Below the pieces are notes generated by a model. That model saw only the letters and a program-made list of their open reading frames with translations. It was not told where the DNA came from and ran no database searches. This document shows positions 3,173 through 16,788 of a DNA stretch of 23,943 bases, piece after piece. A program made the position numbers and the translations under genes. The DNA is taken from assembly GCA_001600495.1 (NCBI GenBank), contig BCKE01000068.1, positions 63,392 to 87,334 on the forward strand, read 5' to 3'. This stretch comes from Pilasporangium apinafurcum. Its lineage: Eukaryota; Oomycota; Peronosporomycetes; Pythiales; Pythiaceae. Position 1 is the first letter of the stretch. Every line of letters starts with the position of its first letter.

Positions 3173-6100
3173 ATGGAGGAGAACGACATGGCGGGTGCAT
3201 CGATCAGCAGCAAGCCACCGCGTGGACAGGAAACACCAATGACTTCCGCTGCCGCTGAACCTGCCAGCAACGACCTCGACGATCAAGGTAAGCCAACTAC
3301 AGACTCGTATGTTGATGAAGAAGACTCGCTGGACGAACAGGATGCGATGGGTGACACGCCATATGAGCGTTTCGTGAAAGCTGATGAACGTAAAGACATG
3401 GAAGGGGCGATAAGTGCGCTGAAGGAATGCGCTACCGCCAATGACCAGGATCGTTTCGGCCGAACAGTGCTGCACGAGTATGCAGAGCAAGGACAAACTG
3501 ATCTGATCAACTTCTTACTCAAACATGGCCACAAAGTGGACTTGGAGGATCTAGAGGACAGCTGGACCGCACTGCATGTTGCAGCGATGTGTGGGCACAC
3601 CAAAGTGGTCAAGACGTTGCTGCGTCATGATGCTAAGATTGACCGTCAAGATAAACCAGATGGCACGGCACTGCATTATGCTGCGCGCGAGGGTCATCTA
3701 TCCACAGTCAAAGCACTGGTGAATGCCAAGGCCGGATGGTTTTGGGATAATCAAGGGCTGACACCGCTACTCTTAGCCGCCATCCATGGTCATATCGACA
3801 TCGTCAAATATTTGCTGAATACTGTGGCAAGCGTTGACGATAGCGACCACAATGGGGAAACCGTGCTCAGTGTTGCGGCTTCAGCTGGGCACATGGACAT
3901 CGTGCAGCTTCTGGTCGATAACGGCGCCGATGTGAATTGCACGGACAATTCGCAAAGGACGGCATTACATGCTGCTGCTTCGTCTGGACACGAAGCTGTT
4001 GTACAGTACTTAATGCAGACCGGCGCCGATGTATATGTCAAAAACCTGAAAGGACAGACACCACTGCAGGAAGCAGCTGCCAACGGCCACACTACGGTCG
4101 TAACGTTTCTGGTGAAAAAGGGAGCGAACATCAATAATGTAGACCAGTTTGGTAGGACGGCATTGGAACTTGCTGTCTCGAATGGACACAACGCCACGGC
4201 AACGTACCTAGTCAGCGTAGGTGCTGTGATAGATCATGAGCAACTCATCACTACAGCTGCAGTTGAAGAGCTTGCGAGTGCCTCGTCTCAAGGAGTGGAG
4301 TGGCTGATTCATCGATCTCAAATCCAGCTCGATGGAGAAGTGGACGGGAATGACGGTAGGCTCTTTGTGTCAACTCACTTTGGGAAATGGATGGGTGCCA
4401 GTGTGGAGATAAAGGAAATGGTCTCTAGTGGCGCAAACCTTCGGTCATTCTTCTATCGTCAAGTTAACATGTGGTATCCACTTAATCATCCTCATGTCGT
4501 GAAATTGTATGGGGTCTGGGATAATGATACGCTGGCGTTTGTGTCCGAGCATCCATTGAATAGGTCCATCAAGAGATTTGTACATGATGAAAACCACAAG
4601 CAGCAAGTTTGGCAAAAGCTGTACGAGGCTGCTCTGGGGTTGCAGTATCTACATGAGCGTGGAATCATTCACGGCAATATCCAATGTAGCAGCATTTTAA
4701 TTGGAGCGAATGGCGTAGCAAAGCTCGCAGAGTTTGGATTGAGCCTCAATGTCAATCGTATCACTGCCAACGAAACGACGGGAACCACATTACGCGCGCG
4801 TCGACGGAAAGCACCTGAAAGCGATCTGTCGTTTGCAGCGGATGTCTATTCATTTGGGCTGTGCATAGTGGAAGCCGTGAGCGGAGATGTGCCGTATGTT
4901 GGTGCGCACACTTTATTGCTCAAATGGAAGGAGAGGAAATATTGGCACTTACCAAATCGGCCACCTGGAATGTCCACCATCAAACAACGGGAGTTAGTGG
5001 AGCGTATGTGCTTCACTAGTCCGCAGGAACGACCGACAATATCAGTGGTGGTGCGTGAGCTGCAAAGCTTTGCCAGCCAAGAAGCAGATGATGGAACGAA
5101 CGAAGTCCATGACTCAACATCGAAGAGCTGTGTAAATGTGAAAGAATATCGCATCCATGATCTTAACAATATCCCAATTGCGCTTGCGCTTGAAAGGATC
5201 GAGTCATTCATCGAAAAAACTAGTACAACAAACCGCATGAATCAGCATGTGCACGCTCGGCTTGCAGATATCTACAAGCAAATGCAAAAGTTGGACCAAA
5301 TCCCGCATTCACCGTTTAAGAGCTATGTCAAAATCCTTGTTTGCTTCTACAATGAAGTCCAAGCAAGCACTACGAAAACTCAGATGTTCAACTTTGCGGC
5401 AAGTCGAGTGCGAGCAGACGATACATTCACGATCCACGGTGAGCTGGATCGACTGATGCAGCTCCTGGGTATATCCACACTCGATGATATCCACCAGTGG
5501 AATGACAAGTGGATGGCAGATCTGCAGCAGCAAATGAAGCGTTTTTCGAAGCAACTGAATGGGTTCCAGGCCTTACTGCTTGACGTGAGTGAAAACCAGC
5601 AAGAGCAAGCTGAAGCTTTGACTTGTTTGCGGTTTGAACTGAGCAAACATCGCACCAACTACGATGCGATTGATTCGACTATCATTGAAGAAGCATGTAC
5701 AGAGATTGAGACTGTGCATGGTGTGTCCATGAAAGACTGGTTTATTCCTCCATACGAAGTGAGTTTTGACGAGCTTGACATGTTTAGTAAAGGGTCATAC
5801 GGGTCTGTGCATCGCGGAACGTGGCTGAGCTCGGATGTGGTCATCAAGAAAGTGCTTCGTCAACCAGATAAAGACTATCGCAAGATTTTTGAGCGAGAAG
5901 TGGCAATCTGGTTTGGTCTTTTCCATCCACACGTTGTGCAACTATATGGTGCATGTCATGTCGGTGACCAGCCATTTTTTGTATGTGAATTCGCTGGTAA
6001 CGGACAGTTGGATAAGTATTTGGAGGAGCACCCGAAACAAACATGGGCCAAGTTATATGAAGCAGCGCTGGGATTGCAGTACTTGCACTACCGTAAGATC

Positions 6101-6526
6101 GTGCATAGTGATCTCAAGTGCAACAATATTTTGATTGGGAGCGATGGTCTGGCGAAACTGACGGATTTTGGGTTAAGTTTGGATAGCAACAGTGATAAAG
6201 AACAGAGTCATGGCCCTGTGGGCGCAGTGCGATGGAAAGCTCCAGAGTGCTTGAAGGGTGAGAAGCCAACATTTGCATCCGACATTTATTCGTTTGCCAT
6301 GTGTATCGTGGAAGCTGTGAGTGGAGAGTTTCCGTGGGGAAAGACACTTGCTGATCCTGTTGTAAAGTTTCACGTCAAGAAAGGGAAGCTACCTATGCGG
6401 TCTTCAAAATTTGAAGATGATCAGTGGCAGTTGGTGACACAGATGTGCAAGTTTGATTCGAGTGATCGACCACAGATTGACAAAGTGGTCCAGGAACTTA
6501 GAAAATTCGCTGGAGTTGGTGCTTAA
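3173..6526 (+). CDS. Ankyrin-repeat protein with tandem pseudokinase and TKL kinase
   Basis: The protein has 1117 residues and no intron. After an acidic N-terminus, eight ankyrin repeats occupy about 94-357 (recurring TALH.AA..GH and VV..L...GA). A first kinase-like domain follows (about 385-640). It has Lys414, but HRD is HGN (500-502) and DFG is EFG (520-522), so it is a probable pseudokinase. A helical segment (about 660-855) resembles the N-terminal bundle of the gene at 218-1726. The second kinase (about 865-1112) keeps the glycine loop (G874..G877), Lys892, HSD with Asp980 and Asn985, DFG at 998-1000 and APE, so it should be active. HSD in place of HRD loses the Arg of the regulated-kinase motif. 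The pseudokinase-then-kinase order recalls JAK JH2-JH1 and plant tandem kinases, where the first domain restrains or senses for the second; that role here is inference. The ankyrin array likely binds a protein partner. No signal peptide or membrane segment is visible, so it is probably cytoplasmic. An alternative start is the Met codon at 3188. Confidence 0.92.
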   Translation: MEENDMAGASISSKPPRGQETPMTSAAAEPASNDLDDQGKPTTDSYVDEEDSLDEQDAMGDTPYERFVKADERKDMEGAISALKECATANDQDRFGRTVLHEYAEQGQTDLINFLLKHGHKVDLEDLEDSWTALHVAAMCGHTKVVKTLLRHDAKIDRQDKPDGTALHYAAREGHLSTVKALVNAKAGWFWDNQGLTPLLLAAIHGHIDIVKYLLNTVASVDDSDHNGETVLSVAASAGHMDIVQLLVDNGADVNCTDNSQRTALHAAASSGHEAVVQYLMQTGADVYVKNLKGQTPLQEAAANGHTTVVTFLVKKGANINNVDQFGRTALELAVSNGHNATATYLVSVGAVIDHEQLITTAAVEELASASSQGVEWLIHRSQIQLDGEVDGNDGRLFVSTHFGKWMGASVEIKEMVSSGANLRSFFYRQVNMWYPLNHPHVVKLYGVWDNDTLAFVSEHPLNRSIKRFVHDENHKQQVWQKLYEAALGLQYLHERGIIHGNIQCSSILIGANGVAKLAEFGLSLNVNRITANETTGTTLRARRRKAPESDLSFAADVYSFGLCIVEAVSGDVPYVGAHTLLLKWKERKYWHLPNRPPGMSTIKQRELVERMCFTSPQERPTISVVVRELQSFASQEADDGTNEVHDSTSKSCVNVKEYRIHDLNNIPIALALERIESFIEKTSTTNRMNQHVHARLADIYKQMQKLDQIPHSPFKSYVKILVCFYNEVQASTTKTQMFNFAASRVRADDTFTIHGELDRLMQLLGISTLDDIHQWNDKWMADLQQQMKRFSKQLNGFQALLLDVSENQQEQAEALTCLRFELSKHRTNYDAIDSTIIEEACTEIETVHGVSMKDWFIPPYEVSFDELDMFSKGSYGSVHRGTWLSSDVVIKKVLRQPDKDYRKIFEREVAIWFGLFHPHVVQLYGACHVGDQPFFVCEFAGNGQLDKYLEEHPKQTWAKLYEAALGLQYLHYRKIVHSDLKCNNILIGSDGLAKLTDFGLSLDSNSDKEQSHGPVGAVRWKAPECLKGEKPTFASDIYSFAMCIVEAVSGEFPWGKTLADPVVKFHVKKGKLPMRSSKFEDDQWQLVTQMCKFDSSDRPQIDKVVQELRKFAGVGA

Positions 6527-7584: not shown

Positions 7585-10056
7585 ATGCGGTGGTCGGCTA
7601 CGCTTAACGCTGCACGTGCTGTGGGCATCGTATACGCTTTTTGCGGCGCATTCGTATCTGCCCAGGAGTGCACTTCACTGACAGAAAACATTCTCACAAG
7701 CGAGGGTTGTCCGTCTGATTGTGGGACGGACCCATGCGTGTTGTACTCGCCTTCGCAAGAGTATTCCTGTACGGAATTGGGTGCCAGTGGTCCATGCTAC
7801 AACGAAAGCTCCTACACTGTGCCAGGGACATCGTCCGAGTGTGACTTGACGTATCAATGTCTCAGTTCGCTCGTGTGGGATGGCGCACAGTGGCTGTTGG
7901 TGCTTGAGGGCAATCTACAAACAAACAAATATACCATGGCATATGTTACAGAGATCACGGCGTTGGAATACGATAGCAGTGCGCTTTCTGTGTAAGTAGT
8001 AGATGGATGAGCTTATCTATTTATTGAGTTTGTAGTGCTTTGTACTCATTGTTCATTTGTGTATGAGCAGACAATTGTCTGGAGGAACCTCGTTAACTAA
8101 CAAGGGCGATGTCAAGAACGTGGTTTTGGACCAGACGTTTTTCGCCACTCCCTCAAGTGCTGGCAGCGTGTAAGAACTGATTTGCCGTTCAGAGTACAAT
8201 CTCGATATTAACCGAAACATTTGTTTTTGCTATTAGATTCATCACGGACGTCAATCTTCGTTCGATTTTGTCCAAGGTGTACATCCCATCGACATGGAAG
8301 ATTGTCTCGCTCCGCAATACGAATCTCGATCAAGTACCAGAAGCGCTCAGCAATTGCACGCTATCAACTCTGTACGCTATTGGAATCATAGACTTGACAT
8401 GCATGGATGTTCCTTTCGTCTTATGACGATGTCCTTGTTATTTATGTACTTTTATTTGTAGGGATCTCTCCAAAAATTACATCACGACTATGCCTGAAAA
8501 CTCTAGTGCAGCCTACAATGGCTTACTGTCGCTGACTGAATTGTATGTGGTTGAGCCAAAGTGTCATAGTATGTGATTGCATTTCATTGGCTCACGACCA
8601 CTTGTGTTGTAGGAATTTGGCACAGAACGAAATGACTAATTTCTCGGCCTACCTTCCAGATCTTCAATCCCTGTAAGCATATTGGATGTACTATCTAGAG
8701 ATACTTTTGGTCATTTGAACCTAATATTCTTGTTTATGTAGTAATTTGACTGGAAATGCCTTCACTGAAATTCCTTCCGTCATTTTCAAAATGTCCAATC
8801 TCAAAAGCCTCTACATGAAGAGCTGCAACTTGTCAAACCTCGAACTGTCCGCCTCTCAGATCACAGTTTTGGAGCAAATGACCAACTTCGACGCTGATAT
8901 TGCGATCACTGGGTGCGCTGAAGGGTATGAAACCAAGACCATCCGAGATGGTGCGCTGACGGTATGCTTCGCTTCTACCACCTCAAGCAGCGACAACAGC
9001 AGTAGCAGCAGTACTGTGGGGATCGCCATTGGAGTGGCGGCAGGTGTGTTAGTGATTTGTTTGATCGCGTTCCTCGTCTACCGTAGACGCCAGAAATCCA
9101 AATATACGCAAGGTACAAAAGGAGGGTCCTCTGTCTACGACACAGAGCTTACGGAAGGAATGCTTCAAGGATCGGATACTTATGGTTCATCAATTTGGGA
9201 TGATCCAGATCTTTTGGCTGTGCGTATTGAACATCGTGATGTCGAACCAATCAAGCTCCTCTCTCGTGGTGGTTTCGGCGAAGTGTGGTTGGGTCTCTAC
9301 ATGAATGAGAATGTGGCGATTAAGCGCTTACTCAACGAAAAGAAGACGATGACGGAGGCGTTGGCATTCGCCGTTGAAATCAAGACAATGGCAAGATTGG
9401 AGCATCCAAAGATTGTCCGTTTCATTGGTGTGTCCTGGACGAATGCATTGACCATTCAGGCTGTGACAGAGTTCATGGATTGCGGTGATTTGAAATCGCT
9501 TTTAGACTCGAATCGCTCATCGTCTCTCACATGGGCGAATCTCAAGTGCCAGATCGCCATTGATGTCGCCGATGCACTTGTGTATTTGCACACGCTGAAT
9601 CCAAAATTGATTCATCGCGATCTCAAGTCCCGTAACGTCTTAATCGACGCACAAACCGGTGCTAAGTTGAGTGATTTCGGTATCTCTCGCAACCGATCGA
9701 TGGAGGAAACCATGACTGCTGGAGTTGGTACGGCTCGTTGGATTGCGCCGGAAGTGATTCTTGGTGGCAATTACACGGAATTTGCAGATATTTACTCATT
9801 CGGCGTGGTACTGTCAGAATTGGATACATGCAAAGCTCCATTCCATGATGCAACCAACACGAATGGTACCAAGCTACAGGACGTGACAATCTTGCAGCTG
9901 GTGTCTGCTGGGAAATTGCAGCCGAGCTTTAGCGATTCTTGCCCAGAGTCGATTCTCCGATTGGCACGTGCATGTCTGGAGTTCGACCCAGCACAACGTC
10001 CAAATGCGATCCATATTTCCTATGAACTGCGCAAGATTTTAAAAGAGGAACTATAA
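7585..10056 (+). CDS. Leucine-rich-repeat receptor-like kinase (TKL group), six exons
   Basis: Exons read 7585-7991, 8071-8169, 8237-8371, 8462-8542, 8613-8672 and 8742-10056, giving 698 residues. Donors are GTAAGT, GTAAGA, GTACGC, GTATGT and GTAAGC, and each acceptor ends in AG. A signal peptide (1-27, ending VSAQ) leads into a Cys-containing ectodomain. Leucine-rich repeats follow (LDLSKNYITTMPE, LNLAQNEMTNF, LNLTGNAFTEIPS), each starting at an exon boundary. A Ser-rich juxtamembrane stretch precedes one membrane helix (about 353-374) with RRRQK as stop-transfer. The kinase domain (about 430-697) is complete: glycine loop from G437, Lys455, HRD 552-554, DFG 572-574 and GTARWIAPE. It should therefore be a catalytically competent surface receptor; the ligand is unknown. 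All introns are phase 2, so exons 2-5 are symmetric. The exon model is from splice-site reading and frame continuity, without transcript evidence. Confidence 0.9.
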
Positions 10057-10424: not shown

Positions 10425-11564
10425 CTATGCAGCAGCTGTCCGCGCAAAACCAATCCGTGGCGCACGTTCCTTCGTCCCAAAGTCGAAGACGGTGTAGTAT
10501 CGACGCATGAACGCCCCTCCTAAGACCCAGACGGGGTCTCCTGGTAAACGGATGTCGATTCCTGCAATCCCAAACAGACAGATGTTATGTCGCTCAGGAT
10601 AGAGATAGTCATCCTTCGTGAGGGTGTATGCAGTTCCATCAATCGTAAAAGTGATGTTCGGAAGCGAAACTGCATCACAATTGATCCTACCCGTGTACGG
10701 ATGCACTCCGACGATAGCTGCCAGTTGGTCCACTTGATCTTTGGGACCAATAATATAGGGACTGAACGGGGAGATCACAACTTTGGTGACGGGCGCAGTG
10801 ATGTTCAGTTCATATGCTTGTATGGAGTTCAAATGTAGTGCCCACGGATTGCCCAAGACAACATTGTGATATTCTATCTCGCCCTGGTAGTATCGCTCCT
10901 CCACTCCACCTAAAGTCAGCTCCCCCTGTCTTGAACGGCCGAGATAAATACCATAAACCGGTTCGTCCAGTGTCTTGCTATCCTGCACAACTTTAGCAAA
11001 TGGCGAATCAACAGCACTGGTATCTGGATTTTGGAATCCGAGCCCAATGACTCCATCCACTGGCAGATATTCCTCGATAGGAGTATGCCGCGTATAATTT
11101 ACTTCGCAGAAAACTAACCCCAGGAACCCAGTTTGTCCGTTAATAATGATATCGTCCTGGGAAAGAAAGCCTGATACTCCTAGGTATTCTTGCTCGAACG
11201 CTGTTCCATTGGCAACGTACGTGGACGACTTGCTGTGATTGTAAAAATGGTGGATAGGACTCAAATGGAAATTAATAACCCAAGTGACCGAAGATAATGT
11301 GTCAACGATTAGCGAGACATTCTGTGATGGAGTTCCAAATCCCATATCTGCTACCCAGAAGTTGAAATCTGACGGTTGGCGGAGAGGAATCTTGACACGA
11401 CCAATTTCGGAAGACTTGGGAAAGGATTCCACAGGAAATCGAGACCCCCAGACATGTGAATGAGCAAATACTGAACTTTTCGTCTCAGCTTCCGTGCTAA
11501 TGGGTGTACTTGGAGACGCTATAACAAGACATACGACAGCACTCAACCACAGCAGAATTGACAT
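10425..11564 (-). CDS. Secreted pepsin-fold protein, predicted non-catalytic (copy A)
   Basis: The protein has 379 residues from the ATG at 11564. The frame extends to 11624, but the paralogue at 13429-14568 starts with the equivalent MSMFLWL, which supports the internal Met. A signal peptide (about 1-17) precedes an A1 aspartic-protease fold recognised by VADMGFGTPSQNV, FYNHSKSSTY, DGVIGLGF, FTIDGTAYTLTKDDY, VLGGAFMRRYYTVFD and PRIGFA. The first active-site motif is DTL (88-90) instead of DTG or DSG. The second, normally D[TS]G, aligns with SPF (265-267), so the second catalytic Asp is absent. Several N-glycosylation sequons are present (for example NHS and NGT). Family knowledge says both Asp residues are required, so it is probably a binding or inhibitory protein. 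The upstream region has a TTCATCCTC initiator-like site at about 11601-11614. It is divergently paired with 12056-13192. Confidence 0.88.
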   Translation of the reverse strand: MSILLWLSAVVCLVIASPSTPISTEAETKSSVFAHSHVWGSRFPVESFPKSSEIGRVKIPLRQPSDFNFWVADMGFGTPSQNVSLIVDTLSSVTWVINFHLSPIHHFYNHSKSSTYVANGTAFEQEYLGVSGFLSQDDIIINGQTGFLGLVFCEVNYTRHTPIEEYLPVDGVIGLGFQNPDTSAVDSPFAKVVQDSKTLDEPVYGIYLGRSRQGELTLGGVEERYYQGEIEYHNVVLGNPWALHLNSIQAYELNITAPVTKVVISPFSPYIIGPKDQVDQLAAIVGVHPYTGRINCDAVSLPNITFTIDGTAYTLTKDDYLYPERHNICLFGIAGIDIRLPGDPVWVLGGAFMRRYYTVFDFGTKERAPRIGFARTAAA

Positions 11565-12055
11565 CTTGCTATGCTGCATCAAGCCAATTGACAAGTGAAG
11601 AAAAGAGGATGAAGCATTCGCCAACAGTAGTACCCCCTGAGACGGAGGTACTCAATAGCGTTTGGAGATAGTGCGTCTGCATCCATCAATTGTCTCGCTT
11701 GAAGGCGAATTGATACCTTGTGTCAGCTGCCAATGTCTTCTATTGGATCTGACTATGGCTTGAAAAATGGGTTCACCTGATAATTGAATAATTCATACAG
11801 AAAAACCTCGCAAATTCGCTAACAACCACTACTACATATCATCTTATATGTAAGGGTATAAAATATAATAGTAAGTTATATTAAAGAAGCAATCTGTAAC
11901 CCTCTCGGTTTCACTTGATATATTAAATTTCAAGAGATTTGGATAAGAGTCCCAGAATGGTGGTCATTGTGAAGATACTGACGAAAGTTGACAATTGCGC
12001 TCACCCACTTTGCAATTCAACCTGAGCAACAAAACATACAAAACAACATTCACCA
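11565..12055. promoter_or_regulatory. Shared upstream region of divergent pepsin-fold genes A and B
   Basis: This is 491 bases between two divergent starts. Its left part (about 11621-11770) aligns by eye with the upstream flank of copy C (about 14638-14785), including AACAGTAGTAC and CAATG-CTT-ATTGGA-CTATGG. The promoter was therefore copied with the gene. Near B, GCTCACCCACTTTGCAATTC (about 11999-12018) is initiator-like. No reading frame of note is present. Confidence 0.5.
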
Positions 12056-13192
12056 ATGAAGACGCTCGCAGCATTGGGTTTACTCGGTACATGCGCTGCT
12101 GCATTGGTGGTTGCAACTTTCGATCAACGGACGGGCGAGAATGCCGGTACTTTCATTCAAGAACAACATCACGCTTCCGTTTGGAATCCCGAGTTTCGTG
12201 TAAAGCACAGCACTTTCAATACTGAGCACACTCGTGTTCTAAAGATTCCCCTTCACCAACTTCCGACTAGTCATGAATGGTTTGGAGATTTGATGGTCGG
12301 AACACCTCCCCAGAAACTCACCGTCATGTTTGACTCAATGTCAAGCGATGTCTGGGTTCCCAATCGGAACTTCGGTGATTTACATCATTTCTACAACCAT
12401 CACGCGTCATCTACCTACAAAGCAAATGGTACAGCATTTGAATATGCCCAGGGTATATCTGGTTTTCTATCCCAGGACACTCTGGCAATTGGAGAAGTTA
12501 CTTTGAAGAACCAGCTTTTTGGTGAAGTGAATGATGCGGACGGTTGGGGATTTGGATATTGGTTCTCATCTATTGATGGAGTATTTGGACTTGGTTTTGA
12601 AGATCATAGTGCAGATGGTATAGAAACACCATTCCATCGTCTCTATCGTAATGGTCTGCTGGAAGAACCAGTATTCGCGTTTTATCTGCCAGATGGTAAA
12701 CCTGGAGAATTGGTGTTTGGTGCTCCAAACAAAAAGCACTACACCGGTGAGATAACATATGCCAATACTATATCTGCTGATCAGTGGGTGTTGCGGTTGG
12801 ACTCTGTCGAGATGAATGGTCACAAGTTTACCTTTGTTAAGCAAGTCTTCATCTCTCCGATGGACCAACTAATCGTTGGACCGGAGGCGGATGTGGATAT
12901 ATTGTCAGCACTCATTGGTGCAGACGAGAACGGACAGGTTGATTGTGACGTTGTAACGCCCGATATCTCATTCACCATCGATGGTGTCGTCTACGTTTTG
13001 ACTTATGACGACTACACCATTAAAATTGGTGATACTTTGTGTATATTTGGGATTGTCGGATTCGATTTCGTGTCGGCAGTAGGACCAGCGTGGATTTTGG
13101 GCGGACAATTTATACAGAAATACTACACAGTCTTTGATTTCGGCACAACTGAGCGTTCCACACGCATCGGCTTCGCTCATGCAGCCACTTAA
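12056..13192 (+). CDS. Secreted pepsin-fold protein, predicted non-catalytic (copy B)
   Basis: The protein has 378 residues. A signal peptide (about 1-20) leads into an A1 fold with FGDLMVGTPPQKLTV, FYNHHASSTYKANGT, a flap region ending GISGFLSQD, DGVFGLGFED, PDISFTIDG, WILGGQFIQKYYTVFDFG and RIGFA. The first motif is DSM (93-95) in FDSMSSDVWVPN, so the Gly is lost. The second site reads ISPMDQ with Ser267 where the catalytic Asp should be. It is thus a predicted pseudo-protease. It is very close to copy D (15643-16788): long blocks of DNA are almost identical, while the N-terminal 60 residues and a loop at 160-173 are strongly diverged. The start is chosen because the signal peptide begins directly at this Met. 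Confidence 0.9.
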   Translation: MKTLAALGLLGTCAAALVVATFDQRTGENAGTFIQEQHHASVWNPEFRVKHSTFNTEHTRVLKIPLHQLPTSHEWFGDLMVGTPPQKLTVMFDSMSSDVWVPNRNFGDLHHFYNHHASSTYKANGTAFEYAQGISGFLSQDTLAIGEVTLKNQLFGEVNDADGWGFGYWFSSIDGVFGLGFEDHSADGIETPFHRLYRNGLLEEPVFAFYLPDGKPGELVFGAPNKKHYTGEITYANTISADQWVLRLDSVEMNGHKFTFVKQVFISPMDQLIVGPEADVDILSALIGADENGQVDCDVVTPDISFTIDGVVYVLTYDDYTIKIGDTLCIFGIVGFDFVSAVGPAWILGGQFIQKYYTVFDFGTTERSTRIGFAHAAT

Positions 13193-13428
13193 GGGATCAA
13201 ACACTTATCGTATCTTTTTCTCGTTTGCACTAAGATATAACTTTTGATTAAATGCATCTTACGAATTTTCACATCATTTCTAATGAAAGAACTTTTTTCT
13301 CCGCCTCATATAGAATGCGACATATGGGCACAATCCACCTTGCACGAGATCGATGAATAGACCATCAAGCCATATTTTATCTTGTAGTCACTCATTTGCA
13401 ACAACACCAGCAAAACAAAAGATCTCCA

Positions 13429-14568
13429 CTATGCATCTACTGCCAGTGCAAAGCCAATCCGCGGCATGCGTTCATTTGTTCCAAAGTCGAAGACGGAATA
13501 ATATCGATGCATGAATACTCCACCTAACCACCATACTGGATCCCCTGGCAACCGAGTATTGACTCCTATAAAGCCAAACATGCACTCGTTGTCTATGATC
13601 GGAAGGAGATAATCATCCTTGGTAACAGTGTACGTGGTCCCGTCAATTGTGAACGAAATGTCGGGAGGAGACGCATCACAATTGATCGAACCCCCATCCG
13701 CTCCTACCAGTTTTGCCAATTGATCCACTTGATCTTTAGGGCCAATCACGTAGGGACTGAACAGCGAGACCACGGCTTTGTTGACCGGGGAGGTGAATTT
13801 CAGATCGCCTGCCTGTACGGATTCCAAATGCAACGCCCATGGGTTTCCTAGAATCACGTTGTGATACGATACGTCACCTTGATAATACTTCTTCTCCACT
13901 CCTCCAATTGTTAGCTCCCCCTGTCCTGAACGACCGAGATAAAAGGCATAGACTGGTTCGTCCAACACGCGCTTGTCACGTACAATTTGAGCAAAGGGCG
14001 AGGACAGAGAACTGATATTTGAGTTTTGGAACCCGAGCCCGACGACGCCATCAAATGGACATTCCTCGTCCATACCCATATGCTGGGTATTATCCACTTC
14101 AGCAAATTCCATCCCCATGAAGACATTGTCGTCAGTAATGATTAAGTTGTCCAACGATAGGAAACCAGACACGCCTGGGTAATCTTGATCAAAGGCTGTT
14201 CCATTGGCGATGTAGGTATGCGATTGGCTGTGATTGTAGAAATGGTGGCCAGAACCGAAATCAAAATTGATGACCCACGTCGTGAAAGATAACGTATCGA
14301 TGAGCATCGAGACATCCTGCGGTGGAAATCCAAACGCCATATCCGCCACCCATCCATCAAAGTGAGGCGGTTGACGGAGAGGAATCTTAATTCGACCAAA
14401 TTCTGTAGATTTGCGGCGGGGCTCGTTAGGAAACCGAGGCTCCCAGACAAGTTGGTGGCGACGTGCGGAATCCAAAGGTCCATCTTCACTATTGGTAAAT
14501 GCTGTGGTGGACTCTGCAATTGCTGCTAGAAAGCATGCGGCTGCAGTCAACCACAAAAACATTGACAT
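13429..14568 (-). CDS. Secreted pepsin-fold protein, predicted non-catalytic (copy C)
   Basis: The protein has 379 residues, exactly the length of copy A and its closest relative in the window. It has a signal peptide (about 1-19) and A1 landmarks VADMAFGFPPQDV, FYNHSQSHTY, DGVVGLGF, ISFTIDGTTYTVTKDDY, WLGGVFMHRYYSVFDFG and PRIGFA. The first active-site motif is DTL (91-93). The second is SLF (268-270), lacking Asp. Predicted non-catalytic and extracellular, with N-x-S/T sequons. Upstream, TCTCACATTTCC (minus strand of about 14611-14630) resembles an initiator. Confidence 0.88.
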   Translation of the reverse strand: MSMFLWLTAAACFLAAIAESTTAFTNSEDGPLDSARRHQLVWEPRFPNEPRRKSTEFGRIKIPLRQPPHFDGWVADMAFGFPPQDVSMLIDTLSFTTWVINFDFGSGHHFYNHSQSHTYIANGTAFDQDYPGVSGFLSLDNLIITDDNVFMGMEFAEVDNTQHMGMDEECPFDGVVGLGFQNSNISSLSSPFAQIVRDKRVLDEPVYAFYLGRSGQGELTIGGVEKKYYQGDVSYHNVILGNPWALHLESVQAGDLKFTSPVNKAVVSLFSPYVIGPKDQVDQLAKLVGADGGSINCDASPPDISFTIDGTTYTVTKDDYLLPIIDNECMFGFIGVNTRLPGDPVWWLGGVFMHRYYSVFDFGTNERMPRIGFALAVDA

Positions 14569-15040
14569 CTTGCTTTTCGCTTATAAGTTGATAACTGGAG
14601 CTCTAGACTTCTGCAGGGAAATGTGAGAGAATTCCCACGAACAGTAGTACAGACTGAGTTAGAGGTTCTTTGATATCGCATTGTGGGTGGAATTTGTACC
14701 TATCAAAGACATCGGTTGGAGTTGGGAATTGGACCTTTTGTTAGTTGGCAATGACTTTATTTGGACTTGTCTATGGTGCAATGAAGTATGCCCATCTGAT
14801 CATCGAACAGAAAAACCAGATAATCATTAACAATATTGCGGGTAGTAAATATGCCAAGTTTTGTAAGAATTTCGAAACAAAGCAAACTCTACCAGCTGTT
14901 TACAGTTATTTGAATTTTGAAGACATTGGTTATGGATAATGATGGTTCGGATTGTTTGCGAATGGATGAAGAATAAAGATACGAACAATAAATGGTTATA
15001 ATTCCTGCATCTGCTTTGCATTCAACAATGAAGAAACGAG
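14569..15040. other. Intergenic, promoter of copy C duplicated from copy A
   Basis: The right-hand flank of copy C, about 14638-14815, matches the flank of copy A over roughly 170 bases with scattered differences. Beyond about 14820 the similarity is lost. No gene is seen up to the broken copy E. Confidence 0.45.
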
Positions 15041-15433
15041 CTCAATGCGTGGGCCGCGCTATGCAGTGCCAAAATCAAAAACCAAGTAGTATTTCTGCAT
15101 AAACACCCCACCCAAAAGCCATGCCTGCTCATCCTCTGTTATCATGTCGAGTCCAACCATCACGAACACACATAAGCCTCCTCTGATTTGTAGATGTAAT
15201 CGTCGCGAGCCAAAAATACACACAACATCGTTGATGATGAACGAGATGCCAAGAGATGGAACTTTACCACCTTTCACACCAATAAGTGTGGACAACGCAT
15301 CTACGTTCGCCGCCGATCCCAAAATTGGTTGGATAATAGGTGTGATGAAGACTTGGTTGCCAGTGGCGAATTTTTAATCTCCTGCCTGGACAGCGTCCAA
15401 CTGCAACACCCTGCGTAAAGCTACTTTCGTGCT
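15041..15433 (-). pseudogene. Broken fifth pepsin-fold gene (copy E), C-terminal third only
   Basis: On the minus strand the frame reads VLQLDAVQAGD, a TAA stop (at the position of a Phe or Leu codon in the paralogues), then KFATGNQVFITPIIQPILG, ISFIINDV, WLLGGVFMQKYYLVFDFGTA, a TAG at 15059-15061, and RGPRIE. It is clearly homologous to copies A-D. The N-terminal two thirds is missing and two in-frame stops disrupt the rest. Even this relic has ITPII at the second catalytic position, so loss of that Asp predates the local duplications. Confidence 0.85.
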
Positions 15434-15642
15434 CTTCATAACTTCAGTTCTGACCCAAATTCTATACCCAACACTCACATTATCTAACAATCAGAAAATT
15501 GTATGTTCCTCTGGAATGTTTGCGAATGATAACGGAATGATGGTACTACCATGACAAAGATATGATCATAAAATACAGTGAGGCATCCTGTTCACATTCC
15601 AATTCACTCACCAATATCAACACGAAACGCGAGCAATTCGCA

Positions 15643-16788
15643 ATGTGGAGACTCACATTCTTGACGCTGTTGGGCACGTGGGCTGTGACAGCGGTGAAGG
15701 TAACGCTAGATGAACAGAAGAACGTGGAAGTAACTCATTACACTAAAAAAAATCAAGACTCCGTTGTGTGGAAACCTGACTTTCCTGTAATCGATGTCGC
15801 GGATGACAACAAGATCTCCGAACATGCGCGTATTATGAAGATTCCGCTTCACCAACTTCCGGCGAGTCACGACTGGTTTGGAGATTTGATGGTCGGAACA
15901 CCTCCCCAGAAACTCACCGTCATATTTGACTCAATGTCAAGCGATGTCTGGGTTCCCAATCGGAACTTCGGTGATTTACATCATTTCTATAATCACAACG
16001 CGTCATCTACCTACAAAGCAAATGGTACAGCAGTTGAATATGCCCGGAATGTATCTGGCTTCCTATCCCAGGACATCCTGACAATTGGAGAGGTTACTTT
16101 GAAGAACCAGCTTTTTGGTGAAGTGAATGAGACGAGCGGCTTGGGACCAGCTTATCCAATGGTATCCTTCGATGGAGTATTTGGACTTGGCTTTGAAGAT
16201 CATAGTGCAGATGGTATAGAAACACCATTCCATCGTCTCTATCGTAATGGTCTGCTGGAAGAACCAGTATTCGCGTTTTATCTGCCAGATGGTAAACCTG
16301 GAGAATTGATGTTTGGTGCTTCAGACAAACAACACTACACCGGTGAGATAACATATGCCAATACTATATCTGCTGATCAGTGGGTGTTGCGGTTGGACTC
16401 TGTCGAAGTGAGTAGTCACAAGTTTACCTTTGTTAAGCAAGTCTTCATCTCCCCGCTTGGTCAATCAATTATTGGCCCAAAAGCGGACGTGGATGCATTG
16501 GCAGACTTTCTTGGTGTGGATGAGTACGCAGTGATCGATTGTGATGTTGCAACGGCCGATATTTCGTTCATCATCGACAGCGTTACGTACGTTTTAACTC
16601 GTGACGACTATATCATCAAAGTCCGCGAAGATTTGTGTGTGTTTGGAATTATCGGATTCGATTTCGTGTCGCCAGTAGGACCAGCGTGGATTTTGGGCGG
16701 ACAGTTCATGCAGAAATACTACACAGTCTTTGATTCCGGCACAACTGAGCATTCTCCGCGCATCGGCTTCGCATCTGCTGCTATCTAG
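15643..16788 (+). CDS. Secreted pepsin-fold protein, predicted non-catalytic (copy D)
   Basis: The protein has 381 residues from the ATG at 15643. The frame opens at 15562, but a signal peptide (MWRLTFLTLLGTWAVTAV) begins at this internal Met, and an initiator-like TTCACATTCCAATTCACTC lies at 15591-15609 inside the longer frame. The A1 fold is as in copy B: DSM (96-98) replaces the first DTG and SPL (270-272) the second. FDFG near the C-terminus has become FDSG. It is divergently oriented to copy C and broken copy E, mirroring the A-B pair. Extracellular and predicted to be a pseudo-protease; the target is unknown. Confidence 0.9.
   Translation: MWRLTFLTLLGTWAVTAVKVTLDEQKNVEVTHYTKKNQDSVVWKPDFPVIDVADDNKISEHARIMKIPLHQLPASHDWFGDLMVGTPPQKLTVIFDSMSSDVWVPNRNFGDLHHFYNHNASSTYKANGTAVEYARNVSGFLSQDILTIGEVTLKNQLFGEVNETSGLGPAYPMVSFDGVFGLGFEDHSADGIETPFHRLYRNGLLEEPVFAFYLPDGKPGELMFGASDKQHYTGEITYANTISADQWVLRLDSVEVSSHKFTFVKQVFISPLGQSIIGPKADVDALADFLGVDEYAVIDCDVATADISFIIDSVTYVLTRDDYIIKVREDLCVFGIIGFDFVSPVGPAWILGGQFMQKYYTVFDSGTTEHSPRIGFASAAI

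Follow-up and report, generated by a model that had tools for sequence, protein, structure and literature searches.

The subject of this report is a group of genes related to aspartic peptidases of family A1 in the oomycete Pilasporangium apinafurcum. They were met in a window of 23,943 nucleotides, by which we mean the whole stretch of DNA that was analysed (contig BCKE01000068.1, G000:C68:63392-87334), where four intact genes (A to D) and one relic (E) form a cluster at positions 10425-16788 (Table 1). An initial annotation had described them as a local cluster of secreted, glycosylated pseudo-proteases that have all lost the second catalytic aspartate. The cluster is part of a much wider family, in one gene type of which the former substrate cleft seems to diversify under selection.

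Table 1. Features of the pseudo-peptidase cluster (positions within the window)
Feature	Position	Strand	Remark
Gene A, inactive A1 homolog, intact, A/C-type, DTL + SPF	10425..11579	-	open reading frame (ORF) of 384 amino acids
A–B intergenic region, between the divergent starts of A and B	11580..12055	.	476 bases
Gene B, inactive A1 homolog, intact, B/D-type, DSM + SPM	12056..13192	+	ORF of 378 amino acids
Codon of B Asp93, column of pepsin Asp32	12332..12334	+	placed by alignment
Codon of B Ser267, column of pepsin Asp215 (second catalytic Asp lost)	12854..12856	+	placed by alignment
Gene C, inactive A1 homolog, intact, A/C-type, DTL + SLF	13429..14568	-	ORF of 379 amino acids
Relic E, C-terminal-third remnant, TPI at second site	15029..15409	-	two in-frame stops
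Gene D, inactive A1 homolog, intact, B/D-type, DSM + SPL	15562..16788	+	ORF as listed; homologous start 15643 (381 amino acids)

Homology to family A1 spans both lobes in the four window proteins. The Pfam profile Asp (PF00026) is covered nearly whole, with E values of 1.1e-51 (A), 2e-62 (B), 2e-47 (C) and 3.2e-64 (D), and the best solved relative is cathepsin D (E 1e-49 for B, 2e-45 for A). The TAXI_N profile of the A1B group (TAXI-type xylanase inhibitors and glucanase inhibitors) gives 20.6-25.6 bits for three of the four proteins, under its cut-off of 30, and no match for C. The start of gene D as listed is probably 27 codons too early, the homologous ATG lying at 15643. Relic E shares 44% identity over the C-terminal third with the B-type and 36% with the A/C-type. 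Structure prediction added little: AlphaFold models built on four-sequence alignments were unusable (mean pLDDT 32.3 and 38.5), and a Foldseek search with such a poor model, which put cathepsin D first at a TM score of about 0.3 to the query, was not used as evidence.

The active site was read from alignments with pepsin and with L001, a canonical cathepsin-D-like gene of the same genome (DTG and DSG, 394 amino acids, contig C6). The column of pepsin D215-T-G reads SPF in A, SPM in B, SLF in C and SPL in D, and that of D32-T-G reads DTL in A and C and DSM in B and D, thus lacking the Gly. These are the residues that the initial annotation had given, as is the TPI of relic E. A HMMER alignment to rat cathepsin D likewise drops the Ser of B into the Asp column. 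The lone DSG tripeptide of gene D (FDSGTTEHS, residue 391 of 408) aligns with the VFDRANN strand of pepsin, outside the active site.

A six-frame search of the genome with PF00026 returned at least 35 matches, a lower bound. Fifteen are full-length and free of stops, three of them canonical (L001, L002 and L010) and 12 without canonical motifs. The latter fall into nine B/D-type genes (window B and D, and one each on contigs C31, C100, C35, C39, C41, C91 and C2) and three A/C-type genes (window A and C, and one on C41), all of them single ORFs of 378-384 amino acids when D is counted from its homologous start. Identity amounts to 63-79% within the B/D-type, 60-77% within the A/C-type, 38-43% between the types and 36-43% to L001. 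The pseudo-protease genes are thus scattered over the genome, with at least 12 intact members besides relics, and the notion of a merely local cluster has to be given up. In a tree with pepsin, L001, L002 and L010, the 12 genes form one clade with an ultrafast bootstrap (UFBoot) of 100 (98 without the cleft columns), L001 is its sister (100, and 99 without those columns), and pig pepsin falls outside this grouping (100). Among the other matches, L002 (1186-3438) is an aspartic protease whose C-terminus is long and multi-pass; it resembles the Phytophthora fusion of an aspartic protease with a G-protein-coupled receptor (AP-GPCR) described in PMC3116508, and a second set of A1-type matches with internal stops (L021, L022, L030) lies at G000:C24:374119-380521.

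Across the family, no C-lobe Asp-Thr/Ser-Gly is found at the active site in any of the 12 genes. At position 215 the genes show S, D, K, N or A, with Pro directly behind it in 11/12. The loss of the second Asp stands for all five window copies and for ten of the 12 genes, but it is not family-wide, as L005 (DPS) and L012 (DPF) have an Asp there. In the N-lobe, none of the 12 keeps Gly34, where M, W, T, L or F stands instead. Ten genes have D at position 32, one has G and one has Y, the two Asp-less genes being L008 and L011. The flap is shortened throughout relative to L001, by three residues in nine genes and by two in three. Tyr occupies the Tyr75 column of the MAFFT alignment in 0/12, a count that depends on an uncertain placement of the flap gap; other placements bring a Tyr, possibly Tyr75, into that column in 11/12, directly in 3/3 A/C-type genes and by a two-residue shift in 8/9 B/D-type genes. 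The psi loops (hydrophobic-hydrophobic-Gly after each motif) are found in the alignment of all 12, as DG-x-x-GLGF in the N-lobe and as hydrophobic-LG late in the C-lobe.

Selection on whole genes was measured as the ratio of nonsynonymous to synonymous rates (dN/dS, or omega). Pairwise NG86 ratios are 0.31-0.57 over the 36 B/D-type pairs and 0.21-0.37 over the three A-type pairs; purifying selection keeps the frames intact and acts on most of the sequence, as had been supposed for A to D. On the nine B/D-type genes (380 codons), model M0 gives an omega of 0.58 and a kappa of 4.1. Sites with dN/dS above 1 are supported by twice the log-likelihood difference (2dlnL) of M1a versus M2a (51.3), M7 versus M8 (63.4) and M8a versus M8 (50.5, p 1e-12). 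The last value stays at 49.6 without the two window genes and at 49.2 without gap-adjacent columns (350 codons left), so the signal persists when gene conversion between B and D or alignment error near gaps is taken out.

To locate these sites, two sets of cleft positions were used. The first (set 1) is taken from PMC12730222 and comprises residues that contact pepstatin, those of the S1' pocket and Tyr75, some of them turned into pepsin numbers by an offset of our own (19 positions, 18 mapped); the larger set 2 adds further subsite residues (38 positions, 36 mapped). A posterior P(w>1) above 0.5 is reached by 8/18 cleft sites versus 21/291 others in set 1, and by 16/36 versus 13/273 in set 2, where the cleft sites concerned are pepsin 12, 13, 30, 34, 74, 75, 111, 115, 117, 189, 215, 219, 220, 222, 245 and 293. 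The observed mean omega of the cleft was reached in 0/20000 permutations and by no circular shift. A partition fit gives the cleft an omega of 1.95 in both sets, with 0.53 (set 1) and 0.48 (set 2) for the rest, and a cleft omega of 1 is rejected at p 0.017 and p 0.0008, respectively. Synonymous rates are nearly equal in the two partitions (cleft/rest ratios of 0.97 and 0.96). Simulations with a true cleft omega of 1 (40 per set) return means of 0.98 and 1.01 and equal or exceed the observed statistic in 1/40 (set 1) and 0/40 (set 2). The contrast also persists on three random trees (partition test, set 1 only), and the tree-free NG86 method, which ignores transition bias, yields cleft ratios of 1.11-1.44 against 0.35-0.41 elsewhere.

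The family's loci were laid out from single-protein searches and a comparison of 15 regions. The unit that recurs between loci is an A-B pair in head-to-head orientation, with about 480-490 bases between the genes (476 in the window, 490 at L034 on C41). B/D-type genes lie beside decayed opposite-strand A-type copies at C31, C35, C39, C91 and C2, with the head-to-head layout recurring at C31, C39, C91 and C2, and A-type fragments without a partner occur in regions at C14 (two), C18, C33, C86 and C125. A-type copies thus decay often; of the B/D-type, nine open copies and one relic (E) were seen. Genes B and D share blocks that are 87-100% identical in nucleotides (window ~12240-12830 and ~15840-16430) beside divergent stretches, a sign of gene conversion. 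One block of 60 bases that interrupts them has 65% identity and lies close to the pepsin 108-115 loop, which conversion may have spared. A duplicated segment of 7.9 kb (92%) that carries the family links C31 (L031 902-8790) to C2 (L036 241-8097), shorter segments are common to the loci at C14, C18, C33, C86 and C125, and a DDE-type transposase-like ORF (PF13358) lies near the C100 copy at L037 110-1252 (+).

The proteins have hydrophobic N-termini and one to six N-glycosylation sequons each (A 6, B 1, C 3, D 4). Two cysteines sit where pepsin has its last disulfide, and the ORFs stop at the end of the domain. These features fit secreted glycoproteins, in agreement with the initial proposal. 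Past residue 60, the 19-residue hydropathy peaks at 1.06-1.78 across the 12 proteins, so a membrane segment is unlikely, a judgement made from these values. Elsewhere in the genome, 50 elicitin, 6 NPP1 and 3 GH28 matches were counted. The elicitin matches and the AP-GPCR-like gene L002 support an oomycete origin, and two molybdopterin oxidoreductase matches (PF00174) speak against Albugo, since Albugo laibachii is reported to lack this kind of enzyme through loss (PMC3130010). Among the neighbours of family genes, L032 holds a PAN-domain gene with a hydrophobic N-terminus (4057-4884, -; PF14295, E 2e-17) and, near a B/D-type copy, a two-domain Kazal protease-inhibitor gene (122-529, -). ORFs resembling this PAN gene recur beside ankyrin-repeat ORFs in the duplicated segments of L031, L040 and L041 (the Pfam scan covered L032 only). 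By association only, the elicitin, NPP1 and GH28 matches and the PAN and Kazal neighbours point to the cell exterior and to interaction with plants.

Several explanations could account for such a pattern. After a loss of catalysis, the active site may simply have drifted neutrally in scaffold, storage or cell-wall proteins that need the fold only. The catalytic-motif positions by themselves agree with this (omega 1.32, p 0.5, no departure from 1), and the A-type genes are under ordinary constraint only. Yet the pocket positions minus the catalytic motifs lie above neutral (omega 2.20, p 0.0006), M8 is preferred to M8a although the latter permits a neutral class, and null simulations seldom or never matched the data. 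As the alignment of the flap is uncertain, its columns (pepsin 73-77) were dropped in a re-test: omega then becomes 1.99 (p 0.0013) for set 2 and 2.21 (p 0.001) for the pockets, whereas the published set 1 gives 1.80 and fails to reject an omega of 1 (p 0.061). Save for this one borderline result, relaxed selection alone is disfavoured, and we consider it unlikely. The catalytic positions act as though freed from constraint, whereas evolution of the pockets seems to outpace the neutral rate. Alternatively, variation could hide the proteins from host receptors, with the cleft being no ligand site at all. The pop proteases of Talaromyces marneffei do diversify on their surface, which has been read as possible escape (PMC6527018), and 13 of our 29 high-scoring sites lie outside set 2 (pepsin 26, 90, 108, 113, 114, 233, 238, 246, 278, 279, 283, 303 and 304). 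The excess, on the other hand, sits in the cleft, as the proportions given above show, and makes antigenic escape decidedly unlikely.

A role inside the organism, be it self/non-self or mating recognition or the chaperoning of an active cathepsin-D-like paralog, would also suit head-to-head pairs and gene birth and death. No direct support for it turned up, and the neighbours in duplicated segments include the secreted-type PAN and Kazal genes; we regard it as very unlikely. Least probable of those considered is that cutting persists by an unusual mechanism. In histo-aspartic protease, a His replaces Asp32, a substitution absent from all 12 family genes. That enzyme and the tick protein BYC are reported to cut with odd active sites (PMC6345952), and the family retains Asp32 in 10/12, an Asp at 215 in 2/12 and a Tyr near position 75 in 11/12. 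Against this stand the universal loss of Gly34, the shortened flap of every member, the five different residues at position 215 and the two genes without Asp32.

Non-catalytic ligand binding with selected pockets is the most economical account. With a probability of about two in three, we read the genes as a secreted family of pseudo-aspartic-peptidases in which the B/D-type clefts would bind and the specificity of their pockets would be under selection. Both active-site motifs may have decayed in the family's common ancestor; because L005 and L012 have an Asp at 215, the loss of that residue could have happened once or several times. The proteins would no longer cut, and the shorter flap may leave the cleft more open. 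Each B/D-type paralog would then grip a different peptide or protein in its cleft, with pocket specificity as the selected trait. Less surely, the ligands might lie outside the organism, the likeliest being proteases, inhibitors or peptides of a host (in the plant apoplast) or a competitor, which the family could sequester or decoy in an arms race. A signal centred on the pockets favours binding in the cleft as such; decoy, inhibitor and adhesin, the roles put forward initially, would look the same in these data.

Several observations weigh against this reading. Two B/D-type genes have an Asp at both catalytic positions, and since a Tyr that may be Tyr75 can also be placed in 11/12, weak activity is conceivable. 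Nearly half of the high-scoring sites, as listed above, fall outside set 2, the flap-free result for set 1 is borderline, and the NG86 ratios of the cleft exceed 1 only mildly. Set 2 goes in part beyond the published positions and was drawn up after the first list of selected sites was known. The codon models ran on custom code with naive empirical Bayes, and the calibration by simulation applies to the partition test only. Genes B and D appear to have exchanged sequence, and recombination was checked for this window pair only. The three A-type genes give a cleft omega of 0.45-0.59 versus 0.33-0.35 for the rest, that is, no cleft signal (at low power); hence, cleft diversification is claimed for the B/D-type only.

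Inactive A1 homologs are known from the placenta, from ticks and a cockroach and from some parasites. Closest in outline are the pregnancy-associated glycoproteins (PAGs, MEROPS A01.971), a multi-copy group of which many members have altered motifs and are thought inactive (PMC2682831, PMC3116508). The family resembles them in copy number and motif loss, its own inactivity and secretion being predicted from sequence. PAGs, however, belong to the mammalian placenta, and ancient PAGs retain active motifs; here the motifs are gone in 12/12, the flap is shortened, the pocket positions diversify and the nearest relative is the organism's own L001. In T. marneffei, the pop genes are described as a repeat-linked A1 expansion that changes in copy number and shows positive selection (PMC6527018), in which both motifs survive in 15/23 (0/12 here) and variation lies on the surface, whereas ours is enriched in the cleft. 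Theileria annulata, an apicomplexan, is likewise reported to have expanded inactive A1 nonproteinase homologs (PMC9965338). Tick RmPAP, which like most family genes is without the second Asp, binds a protein with a KD of 3.35e-8 M and was not found to be proteolytic; it is reported as a single animal protein rather than a diversifying family (PMC6345952).

Among oomycetes, two A1 homologs of Phytophthora thought to be inactive come nearest (PMC3116508). P. sojae Ps_129567 (DVM and FTM), for which two other species have no ortholog, is treated there as a single pseudogene, and PxAP9 as a BACE-like, membrane-bound protein with Tyr75 changed to Phe, whereas the present family comprises 12 intact genes with a secreted look. 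For A. laibachii, ten aspartyl proteases are reported, one of them secreted (PMC3130010). PsXLP1, a secreted paralog without activity, binds an inhibitor of the host, and its decoy role has been tested (PMC8960721); it belongs to glycoside hydrolase family 12 and not to A1, and for the family described here a decoy role is conjecture. Searches of open-licence papers, judged by titles and the beginnings of abstracts, brought up no description of such a family for an oomycete.

A bolder formulation, to which we give somewhat less than even odds, is that of a dead-protease repertoire: the peptide groove would serve as a fast-evolving specificity surface with a different host ligand for each copy, shaped by gene conversion, by duplication of head-to-head pairs and by positive selection directed at the pockets. 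If true, this would be a set of binding grooves on the side of the pathogen. With nine naturally occurring variants of the pocket on a common scaffold, it becomes testable whether pseudo-proteases bind through their old cleft. Motif filters, moreover, risk dropping such genes from surveys, as the setting aside of the similar-looking P. sojae gene illustrates (PMC3116508).

The surroundings of the cluster itself can be described shortly. A Tyr/Ser-Thr kinase ORF (PF07714, E 7.6e-50) adjoins it at window 8791-10056, and an ORF judged by eye to be ankyrin-and-kinase-like lies at 3173-6526. An NPP1 (necrosis-inducing-like) match is found 5.3 kb past the end of the window, at G000:C68:92669-93289.

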